Origin: Flavobacteriales bacterium
Lineage (GTDB): Bacteria > Bacteroidota > Bacteroidia > Flavobacteriales_E > Vicingaceae
NCBI GenBank assembly: GCA_002706365.1
Contig: PALM01000044.1
Location: 1 to 64,000, forward strand
DNA: 64,000 nt
Direction of reading: 5' to 3'
Positions 1,276 to 11,321 of this stretch are shown piece after piece. Every line of letters starts with the position of its first letter. Position 1 is the stretch's first letter. Under the pieces are notes generated by a model. That model did no database searches, was not told the DNA's origin, and worked only from the letters and a program-made list of their open reading frames with translations. Position numbers and translations under genes: made by a program.

Positions 1276-1761
1276 ATGAAAAAATTAATGTTATCTGCGC
1301 TCGTATTTGCAACAGCCTTTATCGCTTGCCAGAGCGACTATCAGAAAGAAATTGAAGAAAGAAAAGCTAAAAAGAAAGCCGAAATCGAAGAGGAATCTAA
1401 GGTTCCTGCTTCTGAAAGGATCACTCTAGATAACAAGGGTGTAGGACCAATAAAGAATATTGAGTTGACTGCCGAAATCGATGAAGAGATGGTGCAAAGA
1501 GGAATGGAGCTTTTTAAGACCAATTGTACAGCATGTCATAAGGTAGATAAAAGGTTTATAGGTCCATCACCAAAAGGAATCATGAAGAGAAGAAGCCCTG
1601 AATGGATTATGAACATGATTTTGGATCCTCAACTTATGGTAGAGCAAGATAGATGTGCTAAAGATCTCTTGGTTGAGTTCAATGGGGCTGCAATGGCAAA
1701 TCAAAATATGACAGAAGAACAAGCTAGGGATATTCTTGAGTATTTCAGAACGCTTGAATAA
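1276..1761 (+). CDS. Monohaem cytochrome c lipoprotein, nos operon
   Basis: A 161-residue lipoprotein. A signal peptide ends in a lipobox (FIAC, Cys at about 19), followed by a charged Glu/Lys-rich linker (about 25-45) and one c-type haem site CTACH at residues 84-88. Met residues near 138 can serve as the sixth ligand. As first gene of the nos operon it is likely the periplasmic electron carrier that feeds NosZ, replacing the NosR route of clade I systems, as cytochromes c do in clade II nos clusters. The donor role is inferred from position. Start: ATG 20 bp after the promoter element. Confidence 0.88.
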   Translation: MKKLMLSALVFATAFIACQSDYQKEIEERKAKKKAEIEEESKVPASERITLDNKGVGPIKNIELTAEIDEEMVQRGMELFKTNCTACHKVDKRFIGPSPKGIMKRRSPEWIMNMILDPQLMVEQDRCAKDLLVEFNGAAMANQNMTEEQARDILEYFRTLE

Positions 1762-2375: not shown

Positions 2376-4343
2376 ATGATGAAAAATAGATTGATGAAAA
2401 TCTCAAGCCTACTCTTCGCAGCTAGCCTATTTGCTGCTTGTGGCGGGGACATGGCCAAGAATTCTGGGAGTGGAGGAGCACTAGGCTCAAGTGTAGCTGA
2501 AAAGGTTTATATTGCTCCAGGAGAACAAGATGATTACTATGCTTTCATGTCAGGTGGGTATAGTGGAAATATCACAGTTTATGGACTTCCATCTGGAAGG
2601 CTATTCAAAGAGATCCCTGTATTCTCACAATTCCCAACATCAGGCTACGGGTATTCTGAAGAAACAAAACCAATGCTAAATACTTCATTTGGCTTTGTTC
2701 CATGGGATGATGCTCACCACCCGGATATTTCTCAAACGAACGGAGAATTAGATGGAAGGTGGATGTTTATCAATGGAAATAACACACCTCGAATTGCCAG
2801 AATTAGTCTGAGCACATTCGAAACTGAAGAGATTATTGAGGTGCCAAATAGTGCCGGTAATCACAGCTCTTCTTTTATTACTGAGAACACTGAGTATGTG
2901 GTTGCTGGAACCCGTTTTGCAGTTCCAGTACCTCAGGCTGATGTGCCAATTTCTGAATATAAAGGAAGCTTCAAAGGTGCTTTGTCTTTTATTTCTATAG
3001 AACCAGAGCACGGTCATATGGATATAAAATTCCAATTGATCATGCCGGGCTTTAATTACGATCTATCTCACCCAGGTAGAAACAAATCTCACGGTTGGTT
3101 CTTCTTTTCTACTTACAATACTGAAGAAGCCAGTACGCTGCTGGAAGTCAATGCTTCACAAAACGACAAGGACTTTATTGCAGCTGTTAATTGGAAGAAG
3201 ATAGAGGAGTTTGTAGAGAATGGCGGCGGTACCAAGATGCCAGTTGAGTATATGCATAATGTATATGATGAGGCTACACACACTGCTACATCAACTTTAA
3301 AAAAGGAGGTTGTAACGGTTAACCCGGCTGATGTTCCTGGAGCAATTTATTTGTTACCCACGCCAAAATCACCTCATGGATGTGATGTAGATCCTTCTGG
3401 GAATTACATTATTGGAAGTGGAAAATTATCTGCTGACGTCACAGTTCACTCTTTTGAGAATATGTTGGCTGCAATCGAAGCAGAAAAATTTGATGGTGAA
3501 GCCTATGGAATACCAATTCTAAATTTTGAGGATGTAATGGCTGGAACCGTTAAGAGTGGTGGCTTAGGGCCTTTGCATACTGAGTTTGACGGCAAGGGTA
3601 ATGCATATACGACCTTCTTTATTTCTTCTGAAGTAGTAAAATGGGAATTGGGAAGCTGGGAAGTGATAGACCGTCAGCCTACCTATTATTCTGTTGGTCA
3701 CCTTATGATCCCAGGTGGTAATTCAAGAAAGCCATTTGGAAAATATATGGTAGCCTTGAACAAGATCACCAAGGATAGATACCTTCCAACTGGTCCTGAA
3801 ATGGAGCACTCTGCCCAATTATATGATATTTCTGGAGAGAAGATGGAGCTGTTATCCGACTTTCCAACACATGGAGAGCCTCACTATGCAGCCGGTTGTC
3901 CTGCAGAACTGCTTAGAGAAAATTCCAAAAAGATCTACCGTATTGATGAAAATGAACATCCTTATGCTATAAAGGATCCTTCTCAAGCGAGAGTTGAGAG
4001 AGATGGAAAAGAAGTACATATTTATATGTCGACGATTCGAAGCCATTTTACACCTGATAATATTGAAGGTATTAAGGTAGGAGATAAAGTGTACTTCCAT
4101 ATTACAAACCATGAGCAGGATTTTGATGTTCCACATGGGTTCTCAATGATCGGTCAGAACACATCCGAACTTTTGGTAATGCCCGGACAAACAAAATCTA
4201 GTTTGTGGGAGCCTAAAAAGGTTGGAGTATGGCCATTTTATTGCACAGATTTCTGTTCAGCATTGCACCAGGAAATGCAAGGGTATATAAGAGTATCTCC
4301 TGCAAGTTCTGACTTAGAGCTAAGTTGGTCTTTAGGAGATTAG
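2376..4343 (+). CDS. nosZ: Nitrous-oxide reductase, clade II (Sec/lipoprotein type)
   Basis: A 655-residue terminal reductase that converts N2O to N2. The N-terminus is a Sec lipoprotein signal (LFAAC, Cys about 21) without a twin-arginine motif, which marks clade II. The seven-bladed propeller carries the His-containing stretches for the CuZ cluster, including DDAHH near 111-115, SPHGCDV, GPLHTEF and MEHSAQL. The C-terminal cupredoxin has the CuA motif C-x3-C-x3-H-x2-M at residues 623, 627, 631 and 634, and an upstream His in VPHGFSM. Copper-site assembly genes follow directly. All expected ligand regions are present, so the enzyme should be functional. Confidence 0.97.
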   Translation: MMKNRLMKISSLLFAASLFAACGGDMAKNSGSGGALGSSVAEKVYIAPGEQDDYYAFMSGGYSGNITVYGLPSGRLFKEIPVFSQFPTSGYGYSEETKPMLNTSFGFVPWDDAHHPDISQTNGELDGRWMFINGNNTPRIARISLSTFETEEIIEVPNSAGNHSSSFITENTEYVVAGTRFAVPVPQADVPISEYKGSFKGALSFISIEPEHGHMDIKFQLIMPGFNYDLSHPGRNKSHGWFFFSTYNTEEASTLLEVNASQNDKDFIAAVNWKKIEEFVENGGGTKMPVEYMHNVYDEATHTATSTLKKEVVTVNPADVPGAIYLLPTPKSPHGCDVDPSGNYIIGSGKLSADVTVHSFENMLAAIEAEKFDGEAYGIPILNFEDVMAGTVKSGGLGPLHTEFDGKGNAYTTFFISSEVVKWELGSWEVIDRQPTYYSVGHLMIPGGNSRKPFGKYMVALNKITKDRYLPTGPEMEHSAQLYDISGEKMELLSDFPTHGEPHYAAGCPAELLRENSKKIYRIDENEHPYAIKDPSQARVERDGKEVHIYMSTIRSHFTPDNIEGIKVGDKVYFHITNHEQDFDVPHGFSMIGQNTSELLVMPGQTKSSLWEPKKVGVWPFYCTDFCSALHQEMQGYIRVSPASSDLELSWSLGD

Positions 4344-4408: not shown

Positions 4409-5023
4409 ATGAAAAAAGCAAGTATAATAATGATCATTGGCTCTCTATGTCTATTGAGTCTTTTTGTATTTCCTATGTGGAATATTCAGCTGGGAGCACC
4501 TCAGTATCCAGAACCATTGGGAATAGATATCTATATAACCGGTCTTCAAGGACAAAGTGAGTTTGATATTCAGAATATTGATGGACTGAACCATTACATA
4601 GGAATGAAAACACTACCAAAACCCGACGATATGTGGGAGTTCTCTGTGTTTCCAATGGTTACACTGGGAATGTCGATTCTAGGAGTTCTTTTGGGTATTC
4701 TAGGACTAATGAGAAAGATTAGGCCGAGTTTTTTCTTGTATTGGTTTCTTCTTATGAGTGTACTTGGAATACTTGGTGTTTATGATTTTAATCAATGGTT
4801 GGTTGAATATGGAACTGATCTTGATCCAAATGCCATAATGAAACTTCAAAACCCAGATGGAACACCAATGAAATATAATCCACCTCTATTTGGGCACAAA
4901 AAGCTATTGAACTTTGATGCTTATTCGTATCCAAGAATTGGAGGAATTTTGTTGTGGGTAGGAATGATGCTCACCTTACTTGCTTTTTTTGTAGGTAAAA
5001 GAGATAAAAGTCTCATTTCATGA
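4409..5023 (+). CDS. NosB-like membrane protein of the nos operon
   Basis: A 204-residue protein with about four transmembrane segments (about 5-25, 85-105, 110-130 and 175-195) and a periplasmic loop between the first two that holds an aromatic/proline-rich stretch. Clade II nos clusters characteristically carry a membrane protein of unknown function, NosB, right after nosZ; the position and topology here match, but I cannot confirm homology by eye, so no symbol is given. It overlaps nosL by 4 bp (ATGA), which indicates translational coupling. Confidence 0.7.
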   Translation: MKKASIIMIIGSLCLLSLFVFPMWNIQLGAPQYPEPLGIDIYITGLQGQSEFDIQNIDGLNHYIGMKTLPKPDDMWEFSVFPMVTLGMSILGVLLGILGLMRKIRPSFFLYWFLLMSVLGILGVYDFNQWLVEYGTDLDPNAIMKLQNPDGTPMKYNPPLFGHKKLLNFDAYSYPRIGGILLWVGMMLTLLAFFVGKRDKSLIS

Positions 5024-5451
5024 TGAAGTTCATTTCTAGCTTAGTTCTGATTTCCTTACTCACAGCATGTTCAATAGAGCCGAAACCAATTGAGTATGGG
5101 ACAGATACTTGCCATTATTGTAGAATGACAATAGTGGATAAGATCCATGCCGCAGAGATAGTTACAGATAAGGGCAAAGTATTCAAGTTTGATGCAGCAG
5201 AATGTCTACTCAACTACAAGTCCGAATTGGAATCAACTGAAAGTTATCTTTTTCTAACAAATACATTTGATAAGCCCTCTCAGCTTGTATCAATGAATGA
5301 AGCGCACTATCTGATTAGTGAAGAATTGCCCAGTCCAATGGGAGCCTTTTTAACTGCCTTTGAATCTGAAAAACAGATTGTGAAGGTCCACAAAGATAAA
5401 GGAGGAATAATTTTCAGCTTCTCAGAATTAGAAGAGAAGTTCAACAAATAA
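5020..5451 (+). CDS. nosL: NosL copper chaperone lipoprotein
   Basis: A 143-residue lipoprotein (lipobox LLTAC, Cys about 16) of the NosL family, which delivers Cu(I) to apo-NosZ in the periplasm. The motif C-x2-C-R-M is at residues 31-35, followed by the FDAAECLLNY segment and the family hallmark LPSPMGAF near 107-114. It overlaps the NosB-like gene by 4 bp. A second NosL domain, fused to a barrel, is encoded by the next gene. Confidence 0.93.
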   Translation: MMKFISSLVLISLLTACSIEPKPIEYGTDTCHYCRMTIVDKIHAAEIVTDKGKVFKFDAAECLLNYKSELESTESYLFLTNTFDKPSQLVSMNEAHYLISEELPSPMGAFLTAFESEKQIVKVHKDKGGIIFSFSELEEKFNK

Positions 5452-5490: not shown

Positions 5491-6921
5491 GTGATGTTAA
5501 GATTGAAGAATGTATTTATCCTAATGCTGGGTCTTTTTCTCTCATTTAAACTCAGTGCACAAACGAAAGAGTATTGTAGTTTATGTAATATGATCATCAA
5601 AGATGACCTTCATAAAGCTACTGCAGAAGAGAATGGAGAGACCTTAAATTTTGATGCAATTGAATGCCTTTTCAATTATCAAAAGAAAGAGAATGTAAAC
5701 TTAGAAAATATGAAGGTAATCGATTATAATACCGGAGATTATATTGATGCAACATCAGCATATTATCTTAAGTGTAAAGAAATTCCAAGTCCAATGGGAG
5801 CATTCCTCTCTGCCTTCAATAGTCAAGAAGAAGCTCAAAAGATGAAATTGGATAAAGGCGGAGAGGTTTATGATTATGAGGAATTAAAAGCACGTTTTGA
5901 AAAATCGGACTTTGGCGACAATGATCATGGTCATCATCACCATCATAATAGAGCCGACGCTCATGCTCCAATTGGTGTTATGGGCGATCACCTTCACCCT
6001 AAAGGCGGCCTTATGATATCATACCGTCATATGAATATGTTTATGGATGGCAATCGCGATGGATCTAACTTGATCGATGATAGTGAAGTATACAATGATT
6101 ATATGGTAGCTCCTCAAGAGATGGGAATGGAAATGCATATGCTAGGACTGATGTATGCTCCGTCTGACCGACTAACCATCATGATTATGCAATCCTATAT
6201 TAGTAATCAAATGGACCTAATAGCCAGAATGAAGATGGACGGGGGAATGAATGGTATGATGGGTTCAATGTTCATGATGAGAGAATTCTCAACCTCAAGT
6301 CAAGGACTAGGAGACCTTAAATTGAGTGCACTTTATGGGTTGATGAATAGAGAAAAGAGCAGTCTTCATATGAATCTCAAGTTGAGTTTGCCTACTGGAA
6401 GTATTTCTGAAACAGATGATACCCCAATGAAAGATGGTGTCAGACTTCCTTACCCTATGCAATTGGGAAGTGGTACAGTCGACTATGGCCTAGGTGCCAC
6501 ATACAAAAAGATGTATAGGAAATTCTCATTGGGCTGTCAACTCAATACACTTTTCAGAGCTGGAGAGAATACTGAAGGATACAGATGGGGTGACATTTAC
6601 GAATTGAATACATGGGGAGCTTATTTACTATCACAAAGTTTTAGCCTTTCTGCACGTTTAAATGCAACACACACTTCTGAAATGTTGGGTAATGATGAGA
6701 ATCTGAATTCAGAAATGGTCTCAACTGCAGATCCAAATAACTTCAGCGGGGAGGTATTCAATACATTTATTGGCCTGAACTATGCCTTTTCTGATGATTC
6801 TAAACTGAGCAAGATCCAATTGGGAGCTGAAGCCGGAGTGCCATTATATCAGAATTATTCAGGGGTGCATATGAATTCACAGTATGCCATTAATTTAGGG
6901 CTAAAGTATAATCTACTTTAG
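5491..6921 (+). CDS. NosL domain fused to an outer-membrane beta-barrel
   Basis: A 476-residue protein with a cleavable signal peptide (to about residue 24) and a complete NosL-like domain at about 25-138 (CSLCNM with Cys29 and Cys32; FDAIECLFNY; IPSPMGAF). A His-rich hinge at about 147-172 (five consecutive His, then DHLHPKGG) leads into a Met-rich C-terminal region that looks like an outer-membrane beta-barrel of the transporter type found near copper genes. Amphipathic strands and paired Met residues (MEMHML, MNGMMGSMFMM) are visible. Known: NosL binds Cu(I). Inferred: the protein carries copper across or at the outer membrane to the NosZ pathway. The fusion is continuous, without a frameshift. 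Confidence 0.85.
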   Translation: MMLRLKNVFILMLGLFLSFKLSAQTKEYCSLCNMIIKDDLHKATAEENGETLNFDAIECLFNYQKKENVNLENMKVIDYNTGDYIDATSAYYLKCKEIPSPMGAFLSAFNSQEEAQKMKLDKGGEVYDYEELKARFEKSDFGDNDHGHHHHHNRADAHAPIGVMGDHLHPKGGLMISYRHMNMFMDGNRDGSNLIDDSEVYNDYMVAPQEMGMEMHMLGLMYAPSDRLTIMIMQSYISNQMDLIARMKMDGGMNGMMGSMFMMREFSTSSQGLGDLKLSALYGLMNREKSSLHMNLKLSLPTGSISETDDTPMKDGVRLPYPMQLGSGTVDYGLGATYKKMYRKFSLGCQLNTLFRAGENTEGYRWGDIYELNTWGAYLLSQSFSLSARLNATHTSEMLGNDENLNSEMVSTADPNNFSGEVFNTFIGLNYAFSDDSKLSKIQLGAEAGVPLYQNYSGVHMNSQYAINLGLKYNLL

Positions 6922-8171
6922 TGCAGAAATTCTACCTACATAGTAGCCGGTTAATCTTTTTCTTGGCTTTTCTTTTTGTCTTTCAGAATGCAGAGGCAAA
7001 AACGATAGATGTATGCAAAGAATGCAACTCTACCACCATACAAAAAGGAATAGATAAATCCTCAGCAGGAGATACTATTCGAATAGCTTCAGGGATTTAT
7101 TACGAGCACAACATTCTGATCGACAAACCTATAACAGTTGTAGGAATAGATATGCCAACGGTTGACGGAGAGGAGCAAGGTGGAATCTTTAGTATTTCAG
7201 CAGATGGAGTGAGTCTTATTGGACTAAAGGTCATCAATGTAGGTGTGAGTTTTACTTCAGATTTTGCAGCGGTCTACTTATCGAGATGTAGTGATTTTAC
7301 ATTGAAGAATCTTGTTTTGGAAGACCTTTTCTTTGGTTTCTTGATTGAAAAATCCTCCAATGGCTTGGTTGAGGGCAATAAAATTATTGGAGAAGCAAAA
7401 GATGAATACAATTCAGGAAATGGCATCCATCTTTGGTATTCAAATAATATAAAGATCTACAACAATCATATTGAAGGTGTAAGAGATGGTATTTATCTTG
7501 AATTTGCCGATACTATTGATGTGAAACGAAATGTGAGCAAGAATAATTTGCGATATGGTTTGCATTTCATGTTTTCCAATAATGATGAGTATTCAGAAAA
7601 TATATTCCAAAATAATGGAGCTGGAGTGGCTGTTATGTTCTCTAAACACATCAGAATGTATAAGAATGAGTTTCGCGATAATTGGGGTACGGCCTCTTTT
7701 GGATTGTTACTTAAAGAGATCAATGACCTTGAGGTAATAGATAATACATTTAGTAATAACACGATCGCAATCAGTGTCGAAGGGGCAAATCGAGTCAATT
7801 ATAGGTCAAACACATTTTCTTCTAATGGATGGGCCATTAAAGTGAGAGGGGCTTGCTACTCTAATCGCTTTCAGGCTAATGAGTTCTTGAATAACTCTTT
7901 TGACCTTTCATACAATAGTCGAATTAACGACAATCTCTTTGAAGGTAATTATTGGAGTCAGTATAGTGGATATGATTTAGATAGAGATGGTGTTGGAGAT
8001 GTTCCTTATCGTCCTGTGAAGCTTTTTTCTTATATCGTTAATAGAACTCCGGAAGCCATCGTGCTTCTGAGAAGTTTGTTTATTGATATAATTGATTTTT
8101 CAGAAAAAGTCTCTCCCGTATTCACACCTGATGAACTCAAAGATGAGAAACCATTAATGAAACCGCTATGA
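6921..8171 (+). CDS. nosD: NosD, periplasmic copper-site assembly protein
   Basis: A 416-residue right-handed beta-helix protein with CASH/NosD-type repeats (many NxI/NxF turns from about 90 to 340) after a signal peptide ending near AEA-KT. NosD works with the NosFY ABC transporter in building the CuZ sulfide-bridged copper cluster. The start is a GTG at 6921 whose first base is the last base of the preceding TAG stop, so translation is probably coupled. It overlaps nosF by 4 bp at the other end. Confidence 0.93.
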   Translation: MQKFYLHSSRLIFFLAFLFVFQNAEAKTIDVCKECNSTTIQKGIDKSSAGDTIRIASGIYYEHNILIDKPITVVGIDMPTVDGEEQGGIFSISADGVSLIGLKVINVGVSFTSDFAAVYLSRCSDFTLKNLVLEDLFFGFLIEKSSNGLVEGNKIIGEAKDEYNSGNGIHLWYSNNIKIYNNHIEGVRDGIYLEFADTIDVKRNVSKNNLRYGLHFMFSNNDEYSENIFQNNGAGVAVMFSKHIRMYKNEFRDNWGTASFGLLLKEINDLEVIDNTFSNNTIAISVEGANRVNYRSNTFSSNGWAIKVRGACYSNRFQANEFLNNSFDLSYNSRINDNLFEGNYWSQYSGYDLDRDGVGDVPYRPVKLFSYIVNRTPEAIVLLRSLFIDIIDFSEKVSPVFTPDELKDEKPLMKPL

Positions 8172-8875
8172 TCAAAGTTGAAGGGGTAAAGAAGCAATTC
8201 AATAAGAATCCAGTTTTGATTGGCTTGGATGTAGAGATCAAAGAAGGTGATGTGGTAGCCATACTCGGACCAAATGGTTCGGGAAAGACTACCTTGATAA
8301 AATCGATCCTGGGAATGGTTGTTCCGGATTCTGGGATAATCACTGTGAAAGGAGAATCAAACAGAAAGGACTCAAGCTATAGAAATCAGATCGATTACCT
8401 ACCACAGATCGCAAACTTTCCGGCCAACTTAAAAGTTGCTGAGCTACTTAAAATGATCAATGATATTCGAGGGGGAAGTGTAAGAGAAAAGGAATTGATC
8501 GCTACTTTCGGCATAGAACCCTTCTTGAATAAGAAGCTGAGTAAGCTTTCCGGAGGAACCAAGCAGAAGGTGAATATCGTTCTTGCCTTTATGTTCGACA
8601 GCCCTATCCTAATTCTAGATGAGCCAACAACCGGACTTGATCCATTGGCACTCATCAAATTGAAAGTCTTGATTGAAGAGGAGAAAGCAAAAGGCAAGAC
8701 TATCCTTATTACATCTCATATTATGAGCTTTGTTGAAGAAGTCGCCAATCGAATAATATTTCTTCTCGAAGGCAAGACTTATTTCAATGGGAGTTTAGAA
8801 GAGATTAAATCACAAACCAAGCAAGCTGATCTTGAACACGCCATTGCCACTTTCTTAGAAAAAGAATATGCTTAA
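8168..8875 (+). CDS. nosF: NosF, ABC transporter ATP-binding subunit
   Basis: A 235-residue ABC ATPase. Visible motifs are Walker A GPNGSGKTT near 35-43, the signature LSGGTKQK near 128-135, and Walker [12 protein letters not shown] near 148-158 followed by the H-loop ITSH. It partners with NosY and NosD in maturation of the CuZ site, probably by exporting a sulfur-containing compound. It overlaps nosD by 4 bp and nosY by 8 bp. Confidence 0.94.
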   Translation: MIKVEGVKKQFNKNPVLIGLDVEIKEGDVVAILGPNGSGKTTLIKSILGMVVPDSGIITVKGESNRKDSSYRNQIDYLPQIANFPANLKVAELLKMINDIRGGSVREKELIATFGIEPFLNKKLSKLSGGTKQKVNIVLAFMFDSPILILDEPTTGLDPLALIKLKVLIEEEKAKGKTILITSHIMSFVEEVANRIIFLLEGKTYFNGSLEEIKSQTKQADLEHAIATFLEKEYA

Positions 8876-9650
8876 AGTACTTAAATACAGCTTTTACGAT
8901 TTGGGTAGAAGTAGATGGAGCTACATTTATTTCTGCTTTTACCTAGCATTGGGTTTTGTATTGCTCTTCCTGAATAATGATCTATCGAAGGCCATAATCA
9001 CGCTAATGAATGTGATTATAGTTCTGGTCCCGCTGATCGGGACGATTTTTGGAGTAATGTATTATTACAATTCAGTAGAATTTACCGAACTACTCTTGGC
9101 GCAACCGATCAAAAGAAGGAATATCTTCCTAGGTCAATACCTTGGAATTTCAATATCTCTTTCGCTAAGTCTTTTACTCGGAATTGGAATTCCATTTATG
9201 ATATATGGGCTTTTAAAATCGGCTGCTATATTTGACTTTTTCTTATTACTGTTAACTGGGGCTTTTCTCACTTTCATCTTTGTGGCCTTGGCATTCAATA
9301 TCTCGCTTCGCAATGAGAACAAAATAAAAGGCTTTGGCTATGCTGTTCTGCTTTGGTTATTTTTGGCTGTGATCTACGATGGAATTTTTCTGATGTCTTT
9401 AATGGTTTTTGAAGATTACCCTCTAGATAAATTCTCATTGATTGGTACACTATTGAACCCAATTGACCTTTCGCGGACATTGATACTACTCAAACTGGAT
9501 ATTTCTGCGCTAATGGGTTATACTGGGGCTGTGTTCAAGAATTTTTTCGGTACATCAAGTGGTATGATCATTTCTATAGTTTCTTTGTTCTTATGGATAA
9601 TCTTTCCTGTCTTTGCATTTGTCTTGAAGGCTAGAACAAAAGACTTTTAG
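8868..9650 (+). CDS. nosY: NosY, ABC transporter permease
   Basis: A 260-residue ABC-2-type permease with about six transmembrane segments and the YYNSVEFTELLLAQPIKRR region (about 65-85) that is typical of NosY and related permeases. It forms the membrane part of the NosFY transporter. The stop is 7 bp before the Rrf2 gene, so the operon continues. Confidence 0.92.
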   Translation: MLKVLKYSFYDLGRSRWSYIYFCFYLALGFVLLFLNNDLSKAIITLMNVIIVLVPLIGTIFGVMYYYNSVEFTELLLAQPIKRRNIFLGQYLGISISLSLSLLLGIGIPFMIYGLLKSAAIFDFFLLLLTGAFLTFIFVALAFNISLRNENKIKGFGYAVLLWLFLAVIYDGIFLMSLMVFEDYPLDKFSLIGTLLNPIDLSRTLILLKLDISALMGYTGAVFKNFFGTSSGMIISIVSLFLWIIFPVFAFVLKARTKDF

Positions 9651-9657
9651 AGAAATT

Positions 9658-10065
9658 ATGCTATCTACTTCTGCTAAATATGCTATAAGAGCGGTTGAAT
9701 TCCTATTAGATCATTCAACTGAGAATAAGAGGATAAGAGCAATTGAGATTTCAATTGGTATAGCTGTTCCTCAGCCATATCTTTCAAAGATTTTGCAGGA
9801 TCTCTCAAAAGGTGATATAATCTCATCAGCCAAAGGGCCAAATGGTGGTTTTTATTTGAATAAGGCTAATAAAGAGAAATCCCTCTGGGATGTTGTTGTC
9901 TGCATAGATGGTATTGCTGAATTTAATAAATGCTATATGGGAACTCCAAATTGCGACGCAAATAATCCTTGTTCATTGCACGATTTAGCCTTGGAATTTA
10001 GGACCAGTCTGATCAATAATCTCAAAGGAAGAAGGGTTGACCGCTTGGGTGTGCACAAGAAGTAA
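9658..10065 (+). CDS. Rrf2-family regulator with three cysteines (nos operon)
   Basis: A 135-residue winged-helix regulator of the Rrf2 family (MLSTSAKYAIRAVEFL start; GPNGGFYL wing near 61-68). Three cysteines near 92-105 (C-x6-C-x5-C) can hold an iron-sulfur cluster, as in NsrR, IscR and RsrR. Its place between nosY and the NnrS-like gene points to NO or redox sensing. It is a paralogue of the Rrf2 protein at 14,614-15,048. Its target is unknown: no copy of the TARTGGA-N8-TCCATTA operator was seen at the nos promoter. Confidence 0.85.
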   Translation: MLSTSAKYAIRAVEFLLDHSTENKRIRAIEISIGIAVPQPYLSKILQDLSKGDIISSAKGPNGGFYLNKANKEKSLWDVVVCIDGIAEFNKCYMGTPNCDANNPCSLHDLALEFRTSLINNLKGRRVDRLGVHKK

Positions 10066-10079
10066 GAATTTCATGGTTT

Positions 10080-11321
10080 ATGCTTAAGTCTCGGTATTCT
10101 TGCATCTTTAGAGAGAAAAGCTGGTTCAGCTTAACTCTTTTATACTTACTACTTACTGCTCTGTTCGGCCTGTTTTTAAGGGTATTACAGACCTGGTCGT
10201 TCGATATTAAGTTCACTAATATCTTACATGCACACTCTCATACAGCTTTATTAGGATGGTGTAGTACAGCATTCTTCTTGCTGCTCGTAAATGCCTTTGT
10301 AGAAAGTTCTCCTAAGCGAAGTATAAGCTATCGCAGGATCTTTTACGCCTTTCAGTTCTCAATATTTGGAATGATCATCTTCTTCCCATTTCAAGGTTAT
10401 TCAATAACTACCATTGCTTTTTCTTCATTCTATATTCTTGTCTCCTATGCCTTTGCTTTTAGATTCTTGAAAGACACATCGAATCATAGGAAGATATCAA
10501 TAGCAGTTCGATTTGCCAGATATTCGGTAATCTTCTTTGTAATCTCATCTATTGGGCCTTGGAGTTTAGGGCCGCTGAATGCAATTGGAATGGGAGGGAG
10601 TGACCTTTATTTTAATATGATCTACTTCTATTTACACTTCCTCTACAATGGTTGGTTCCTCTTTGCGATTCTGGCTTTGTGTTTCGCTTATTTAGAAAAG
10701 AGAGGAATTCGCTATAGCGAGAAAAGAGCCAATAGGGTACTTATACTTTTTACGATCTCTACTTTAGTCGCTTTCTCTCTTTCAACACTTTGGGTAGAGC
10801 CTCCCTTTGTTGTATATATCTGCGGGATTGTTGCTATGCTCCTTCAATTGATTGCCTTTATAGACTTAATTCAATTAATACGGAATGTGAGTAATAAAAT
10901 AGCCTTTAGATCAAAACTGTTCAAATGGATAACTTACGGAGTGTTTATTGCATTTGCTTTGAAGATTATGTTGCAATCCCTTTCTGCAATCCCTTCAATT
11001 GCTTATGAAATTGCTTTACGCAGAGAATGGGTCTTGGCTTATTTGCATTTGATCTTCCTGGGAATTGTTACACCTTTTCTACTGTTATTATTCATTCGGG
11101 ATTACCTTGCAGGACAGTTTAATATCCTAATCAAATGGGGAGGAGGCATTTTTATCATTGCTTTCTTTTTCAACGAGATCTTGATGTTCGTTAAAGGACT
11201 TGGAGGAAGCTTTATTCATATCAATCGATTTTTATTGATTGCAGCGGTTGGTCTCTTTATTGGAATTCTATTAGTGAATATCAGTTTCTTTAGATCAGAT
11301 AATAAGAATCACCAACCATGA
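10080..11321 (+). CDS. Polytopic membrane protein, NnrS / haem-copper subunit I-like
   Basis: A 413-residue protein with about twelve transmembrane segments. Conserved-looking histidines lie in helices: LHAHSHTALLGW near 49-60, FYLHFLYNGW near 180-190 and AYLHLIFLGIVTP near 325. These resemble haem-ligand patterns of subunit-I-like and NnrS-type proteins. It lacks the usual full set of oxidase ligands and has no partner subunit nearby, so an NnrS-like role in NO tolerance is more likely than respiration. It is the last gene of the nos run and its 3' end overlaps the converging gene by 13 bp. Confidence 0.6.
   Translation: MLKSRYSCIFREKSWFSLTLLYLLLTALFGLFLRVLQTWSFDIKFTNILHAHSHTALLGWCSTAFFLLLVNAFVESSPKRSISYRRIFYAFQFSIFGMIIFFPFQGYSITTIAFSSFYILVSYAFAFRFLKDTSNHRKISIAVRFARYSVIFFVISSIGPWSLGPLNAIGMGGSDLYFNMIYFYLHFLYNGWFLFAILALCFAYLEKRGIRYSEKRANRVLILFTISTLVAFSLSTLWVEPPFVVYICGIVAMLLQLIAFIDLIQLIRNVSNKIAFRSKLFKWITYGVFIAFALKIMLQSLSAIPSIAYEIALRREWVLAYLHLIFLGIVTPFLLLLFIRDYLAGQFNILIKWGGGIFIIAFFFNEILMFVKGLGGSFIHINRFLLIAAVGLFIGILLVNISFFRSDNKNHQP

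Follow-up and report, generated by a model that had tools for sequence, protein, structure and literature searches.

How does copper cross the outer membrane on its way to nitrous oxide reductase? When copper is short the enzyme fails and cells release N2O, according to the accessible text of PMC6530538, which also describes NosL as serving the copper assembly of NosZ, proposes Cu(I) binding at its CXM motif (CXXCXM in clade II) and predicts that a lipid anchor holds the protein at the outer membrane. In the text examined, no description was found of the route that copper takes across the outer membrane to reach N2O reductase. Here we consider a gene of a Flavobacteriales bacterium in which a NosL domain is joined to a predicted outer-membrane barrel, and ask what such a union might be for.

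The nos operon and its fused NosL

The window, by which we mean the whole stretch of 64,000 nucleotides analysed (contig PALM01000044.1, positions 1 to 64,000), carries a nos operon with the following genes:

1276..1761, + strand: c-type cytochrome at the operon head (PF00034, 43.5 bits)
starts at 1789: fasciclin-domain protein, between the cytochrome c and NosZ
2376..4343, + strand: NosZ, clade II, Sec-dependent (TIGR04246, 927.5 bits, cut-off 625)
4409..5023, + strand: conserved membrane protein of 204 aa, encoded between nosZ and nosL (no Pfam family above cut-off)
5020..5451, + strand: separate NosL lipoprotein with lipobox LTAC (PF05573, 41.6 bits)
5491..6921, + strand: NosL-barrel fusion gene, 476 codons (open reading frame list, Pfam, 18 distinct fusions)
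6921..8171, + strand: NosD, overlapping the fusion stop codon (PF05048, 120 bits)
8168..8875, + strand: NosF-type ABC ATPase (PF00005, 104.5 bits), named by operon position
8868..9650, + strand: NosY-type ABC permease (ABC2_membrane matches weak and below cut-off), named by operon position
starts at 9658: Rrf2 regulator, following the NosY-like gene

The fusion gene begins 39 bases past the end of nosL, whose product is the ordinary NosL that the initial annotation had placed just upstream, and its stop overlaps the nosD start. The frame opens with GTG-ATG, and the real start may be the ATG at 5494. A scan for promoters and terminators returned hits no more numerous than in shuffled sequence.

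Two membrane proteins of this neighbourhood deserve a brief description of their own. The 204-aa protein, which we take to be perhaps the NosB of clade II operons, was found in all 11 named fusion loci, and in two genomes from the same family as the window (L011:820-1842, L012:1498-2526) NosL lies in frame with it, giving a joined frame of ~340 aa with a lipobox-like stretch still ahead of NosL; many NosL frames of 340-410 aa in the class sample may resemble these. Near the operon, at 10080-11321, lies a membrane protein of ~400 aa with no Pfam match above cut-off, and proteins judged by eye to be like it occur in three fusion loci (L048, L053, L055).

The fusion protein itself is made up of these parts:

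5491..5559, + strand: export signal, residues 1-23, ending SAQ, with no lipobox Cys ahead of CxxC (sequence)
5560..5892, + strand: NosL domain, residues 24-134 (PF05573, 7og7 fold match, motifs)
5917..5955, + strand: flexible His-rich hinge, residues 143-155 (pLDDT <50 at 143-149, His counts)
5956..6009, + strand: conserved His/Met segment at residues 156-173, DAHAPIGVMGDHLHPKGG, which overlaps the N-terminal plug of COG4313 barrels (4rl8 fold alignment; H167, H169 and M164 conserved)
6010..6912, + strand: predicted outer-membrane beta-barrel, residues 174-474, COG4313-like (AlphaFold2, 4rl8 fold match)
6010..6237, + strand: Met ladder of strands 1-3, M175, 181, 183, 185, 211, 213, 215, 217, 221, 231, 233 and 241 (alignment column counts)

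The full NosL domain with CxxC and SPMGAF motifs that had been read from the sequence is borne out by the Pfam profile (PF05573, residues 24-134, 47.9 bits, cut-off 24), with CSLCNM at residues 29-34 (C29-x-x-C32-x-M34) and SPMGAF at 100-105 (S100-P-M102-G-A); CxxCxM and SPMGA are kept in 18/18 fused NosL domains. The join through a His-rich hinge (DHGHHHHHNR) to a Met-rich barrel likewise holds: the 38-residue hinge-plus-plug stretch contains 6 to 9 His in every one of the 18 fusions, and 30 of the 317 barrel residues of the window's protein are Met (9.5%); in 151 open reading frames of related loci Met averages 3.1% (sd 1.6) and reaches 7.9% at most. PF13557 (Phenol_MetA_deg, the COG4313 family) matches residues 237-440 at 27 bits (cut-off 22), and the CopB/PcoB family is absent from the Pfam matches of this protein up to E 10. 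Among the aligned fusions the NosL profile matches 12/12 and PF13557 11/12 (E up to 0.01).

Predicted structure

AlphaFold2, supplied with 79 aligned sequences (12 fusions and 67 free-standing barrels), gave a model of the fusion with a mean pLDDT of 91.6 and a pTM of 0.78, in which it is uncertain how the two domains are oriented to each other; confidence is low at residues 20-24 and 143-149 (pLDDT <50), and lies between 60 and 70 over the signal. A barrel had been expected within residues 170-476, and one is confidently predicted at 174-474. Among Foldseek PDB matches aligned with VIA-align, its best counterpart is the COG4313 channel 4rl8 (Z 25.2, rmsd 2.5, 253 aligned), from model residue 162 and chain residue 2 onwards, followed by FapF (Z 24.7); the copper barrel PcoB (7pge) falls far below 4rl8 (Z 12.4, rmsd 3.8, 188 aligned, 8% identity). 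Residues 25-136 match NosL 7og7 (Z 14.6, rmsd 2.0, 112 aligned). DSSP divides the modelled barrel into 13 segments, of which 260-273 and 276-286 are read as one bulged strand because the parity of the conserved side switches there, leaving 12 strands, the number given for the 4rl8 barrel in the accessible text of PMC4493636.

A ladder of methionines

The methionines of the barrel are conserved in place. Of the 45 free barrels, 36 to 44 have Met at each of 13 ladder and loop positions (175, 181, 183, 185, 211, 213, 215, 217, 221, 231, 233, 241 and 323), as do 11 or 12 of the 12 distinct fusions; H167 and H169 are conserved in 40/45 and 42/45 free barrels, respectively. These 45 barrels and 12 fusions came from a whole-protein search in which no motif pattern was used. 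A separate peptide-pattern search employed two patterns, one of them fixing Met 211-217, and of the 291 relatives it found the best 80 were retained; Met 211-217 is thus partly built into the loci found in that way, and the conservation claim therefore rests on the whole-protein-search set. Fused barrels are richer in Met than free-standing ones (means of 8.5%, n=12, and 6.3%, n=67).

Within strands 1-3 all conserved Met are odd-numbered, and the ladder spans nearly the full length of the strands. Judged by strand parity, the Met-bearing side is probably the lumen face, since the conserved S177 and R179 share it.

Distribution of the fusion and its link to N2O reduction

We found 18 distinct fusion proteins, all in Bacteroidota, in overlapping samples whose searches begin with a loose first pass, so that counts are lower bounds; this number of distinct fusions rules out chance or assembly error as the source. 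Eleven fusions aligned with that of the window are 47-58% identical to it. Of the 291 confirmed relatives from the pattern search of genome contigs, the best 80 comprised 11 full-length fusions and 69 barrels without NosL. Carriers are few in every sample, at least 3/46 genomes of the order, 2/395 of the class and 9/397 of the family of genome G309, and those with a family or genus name belong to Flavobacteriaceae or Acidiluteibacter (Cryomorphaceae). Cultivable carriers include Maribacter thermophilus, Leptobacterium flavescens and Flagellimonas onchidii. Phage records yielded no match to the fusion, and the nine plasmid records that matched did so with barrel-only or NosL-only proteins.

Where the fusion occurs, it keeps company with the nos genes. 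It would have spoken against the proposed link had it been equally frequent elsewhere, and the survey found otherwise: 17/18 fusions lie between nosL and nosD of a nos operon. The exception, in genome G516 (locus L155, contig C80), stands alone between unrelated genes on an 8.8-kb contig, and the same genome has an intact nos operon in nosL-nosD order with no fusion inside. In the family sample of 397 genomes, NosZ is present in 9/9 fusion carriers and 180/397 genomes overall (hypergeometric p 0.0007, relatedness ignored), and the fusion was found in 0/217 NosZ-negative genomes. The fusion is rare among NosZ-positive genomes of this sample (9/180), and therefore N2O reduction does not need it. 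Nor is the barrel alone tied to N2O reduction, since only 12 of the 39 genomes with free-standing barrels in the same sample possess NosZ.

Free-standing barrels and their copper neighbourhood

Relatives of the barrel that stand alone carry the annotations 'transporter', 'outer membrane beta-barrel protein' or 'alpha-amylase'. In Bacteroidota their genes often adjoin those of MbnP (PF20243, 82.9 bits) and an HMA-domain protein, one example of each having been scanned, and a short Cys-containing open reading frame. Short frames with C-x(2-4)-C and a terminal PP lie upstream of 37/45 free barrels in the whole-protein-search set, and of 22/68 in the pattern-search set compared with 5/435 other frames; the latter pair is the like-for-like comparison, in which the pattern was defined after examples had been seen, the control frames come solely from L056-L124, three barrel loci with <400 bases upstream were excluded, and a handful of the 22 seem spurious (e.g. 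L057, L085). Eleven upstream frames end in R[AS]PP, and of the 10 scanned two passed the DUF2946 cut-off, three fell below it and five had no match.

According to the accessible text of PMC9426467 and PMC9973294, CruR of DUF2946 and the CutF family are upstream frames that sense copper, of which CruR-type members repress an importer in one case and favour a copper oxidase in another. As these effects differ in direction, the upstream frames indicate copper control and not import. CruR/DUF2946-like frames with a Cys pair and terminal PP occur at L017-L040, L134-L154, L070, L081, L083, L084, L089, L094, L107 and L122, and three scanned examples of the Bacteroidota form (CxxxC, ending like FHPPxx) had no Pfam match. 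No such short frame lies directly upstream of the nos-operon fusion, where nosL occupies that place.

Two candidates were set aside. In Oleispira (L058:7908-9014) a free Met-rich barrel is divergent from nosR-nosZ-nosD-nosF-nosY; as an independent link to nos this is one case only, absent within the 1.5-kb flanks of two family relatives that have the barrel, and may be chance. Long N-terminal extensions of other barrels were considered as further chaperone fusions, and no chaperone domain was found in the 10 scanned with Pfam; several have the look of low-complexity sequence or of misplaced starts.

Origin of the fusion and absence of the lipid anchor

A branch with support 100/99 sets the fused NosL domains apart from 29 separate NosL, and in a tree built by a quick method a branch with support 100 does the same for the fused barrels, whose neighbours there (support 91) are free barrels nearly all from Flavobacteriaceae or the G309-family sample. 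Fused barrels derive from free-standing Met-rich barrels, a family spread over many phyla, and, with both halves forming clades, most likely one nosL copy joined one barrel once, the pair being later lost or passed on unevenly.

Fused and paired forms differ at the N-terminus. All 18 paired separate NosL have a Cys before CxxC at the signal end, 13 of them within a strict lipobox pattern; among the 18 fused NosL, 10 have some Cys before CxxC and one a strict pattern, which lies within the hydrophobic core. The signals of fused forms mostly end in AQ, like those of ordinary exported proteins, and that of the window has no lipobox, so the protein holds a NosL domain but is not a canonical NosL lipoprotein. 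Because NosL is predicted at the outer membrane (PMC6530538, accessible text) and the fused form is without a lipobox, the barrel seems to take over outer-membrane anchoring from the lipid, and would thereby keep NosL in its place.

A candidate copper port for nitrous oxide reductase

The initial annotation had suggested a dedicated copper entry port or store for N2O reductase. Part of this stands: the conserved Met on one side of the barrel strands and the copper-gene neighbourhoods of its relatives support a copper role. The dedication has to be narrowed, as the Met/His barrel is not specific to nos and only its fusion to NosL is tied to those genes. We consider the chances about even that the fusion serves as a copper(I) port of the outer membrane, carrying an attached NosL chaperone of its own and dedicated to nitrous oxide reductase. 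With its C-terminal COG4313-type barrel seated in the outer membrane, copper would enter along the ladder of Met side chains on the putative lumen face of strands 1-3, meet the His/Met-rich N-terminal plug and travel through the flexible His hinge to the NosL domain facing the periplasm, which would then load apo-NosZ, either directly or via lipoprotein NosL and NosD. The analysis shows the gene and its domains, the predicted folds, the conserved Met and His, the place in the operon, the tie to NosZ, a probable single origin and the missing lipid anchor; from these we infer copper binding by the barrel, the inward direction and the handover, together with the lumen orientation that strand parity suggests. 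PcoB, another copper barrel, is described as admitting copper in the accessible text of PMC9210255. Counting against a port, the nearest solved barrels, 4rl8 and FapF, are not metal-linked, being tied to hydrophobic molecules or protein export (PMC4493636, accessible text, and PDB titles), and PcoB fits less well; one fusion (that of G516) also lies outside a nos operon, and carriers are few.

The same features might serve to hold copper instead of passing it, the Met-lined barrel and His hinge acting as a store or buffer charged from the periplasm, on which the NosL domain draws. The high Met content and the two His/Met-rich segments would suit this, as would the plug, which nearly closes the solved COG4313 barrel (PMC4493636, accessible text) and favours holding over flow; a membrane-spanning barrel is nevertheless a costly store and the ladder extends over almost the whole strand length. 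We regard storage as unlikely. Quite unlikely is that the barrel does no more than stand in for the lipid anchor, holding a second NosL at the outer membrane by means of a barrel whose channel is irrelevant to NosZ. That the strict lipobox of paired copies is largely gone from fused ones (1/18 vs 13/18), and that the paired NosL is still present, fits such a reading, against which the barrel's Met/His positions are retained in the fused clade and Met is further enriched.

That the barrel clears excess copper while the nos genes are on seems very improbable. An outer-membrane barrel, PcoB, does belong to the Pco copper-resistance system (PMC9210255, accessible text), and sensor-kinase-like genes, recognised by eye, lie near the barrel in 17/75 grouped loci; the fusion gene, however, sits among assembly factors, not efflux pumps, in 17/18 cases, and NosL serves the copper assembly of NosZ (PMC6530538, accessible text). 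We give least credence, and scarcely any, to a barrel that transports some non-metal molecule, hydrophobic or otherwise, as is proposed for other COG4313 channels, the NosL domain being incidental: the nearest solved relatives and the very name of PF13557 point that way, but the Met/His pattern is conserved and free relatives adjoin copper genes.

Known systems and implications

The fusion shares with NosL (PF05573; 7og7, and the NosDFYL complex 7osf) its domain, the CxxCxM and SPMGA motifs, the fold and the nos operon, but NosL of 7og7/7osf is a separate protein (chains of 134 to 198 aa), whereas the window's protein is without a lipobox and bears a C-terminal barrel. With COG4313/PF13557 channels such as Pput2725 (4rl8) it has in common the barrel fold and an N-terminal segment aligned to the plug; it differs in being Met/His-rich, fused to NosL and outside any context of hydrophobic uptake, the function proposed for that family in the accessible text of PMC4493636. 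Its likeness to PcoB (7pge) is that of an outer-membrane barrel tied to copper handling, but the fold match is weaker, identity is 8%, Pfam gave no match to CopB/PcoB, and PcoB has no fused NosL. A multicopper oxidase of Bizionia argentinensis with a C-terminal PcoB-like region also unites a Bacteroidota periplasmic copper protein with a porin-like region; its partners are different, and the nos operon is not mentioned with it in the accessible text (PMC11213822). Related as well are the free-standing Met-rich barrels beside MbnP found here in Bacteroidota, which have the barrel family and Met pattern of the fusion but lack NosL, have a copper-type neighbourhood of their own and are not tied to NosZ. 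Within the open-access literature searched, neither a NosL-barrel fusion nor a copper role for COG4313/PF13557 barrels was found described.

A broader reading, to which we lean a little less than evenly, is that an unrecognised family of Met-ladder copper(I) channels, often CruR-sensed, extends over many phyla, and that Flavobacteriales fused one of them to a duplicated NosL, giving a single enzyme, N2O reductase, a copper supply of its own that starts outside the cell. If true, a metallochaperone would here be covalently bound to the outer-membrane port for its metal. With a likely port and a chaperone united in one gene, the outer-membrane copper step becomes directly testable, and the gene points beyond itself to a large barrel family whose members may be copper channels.
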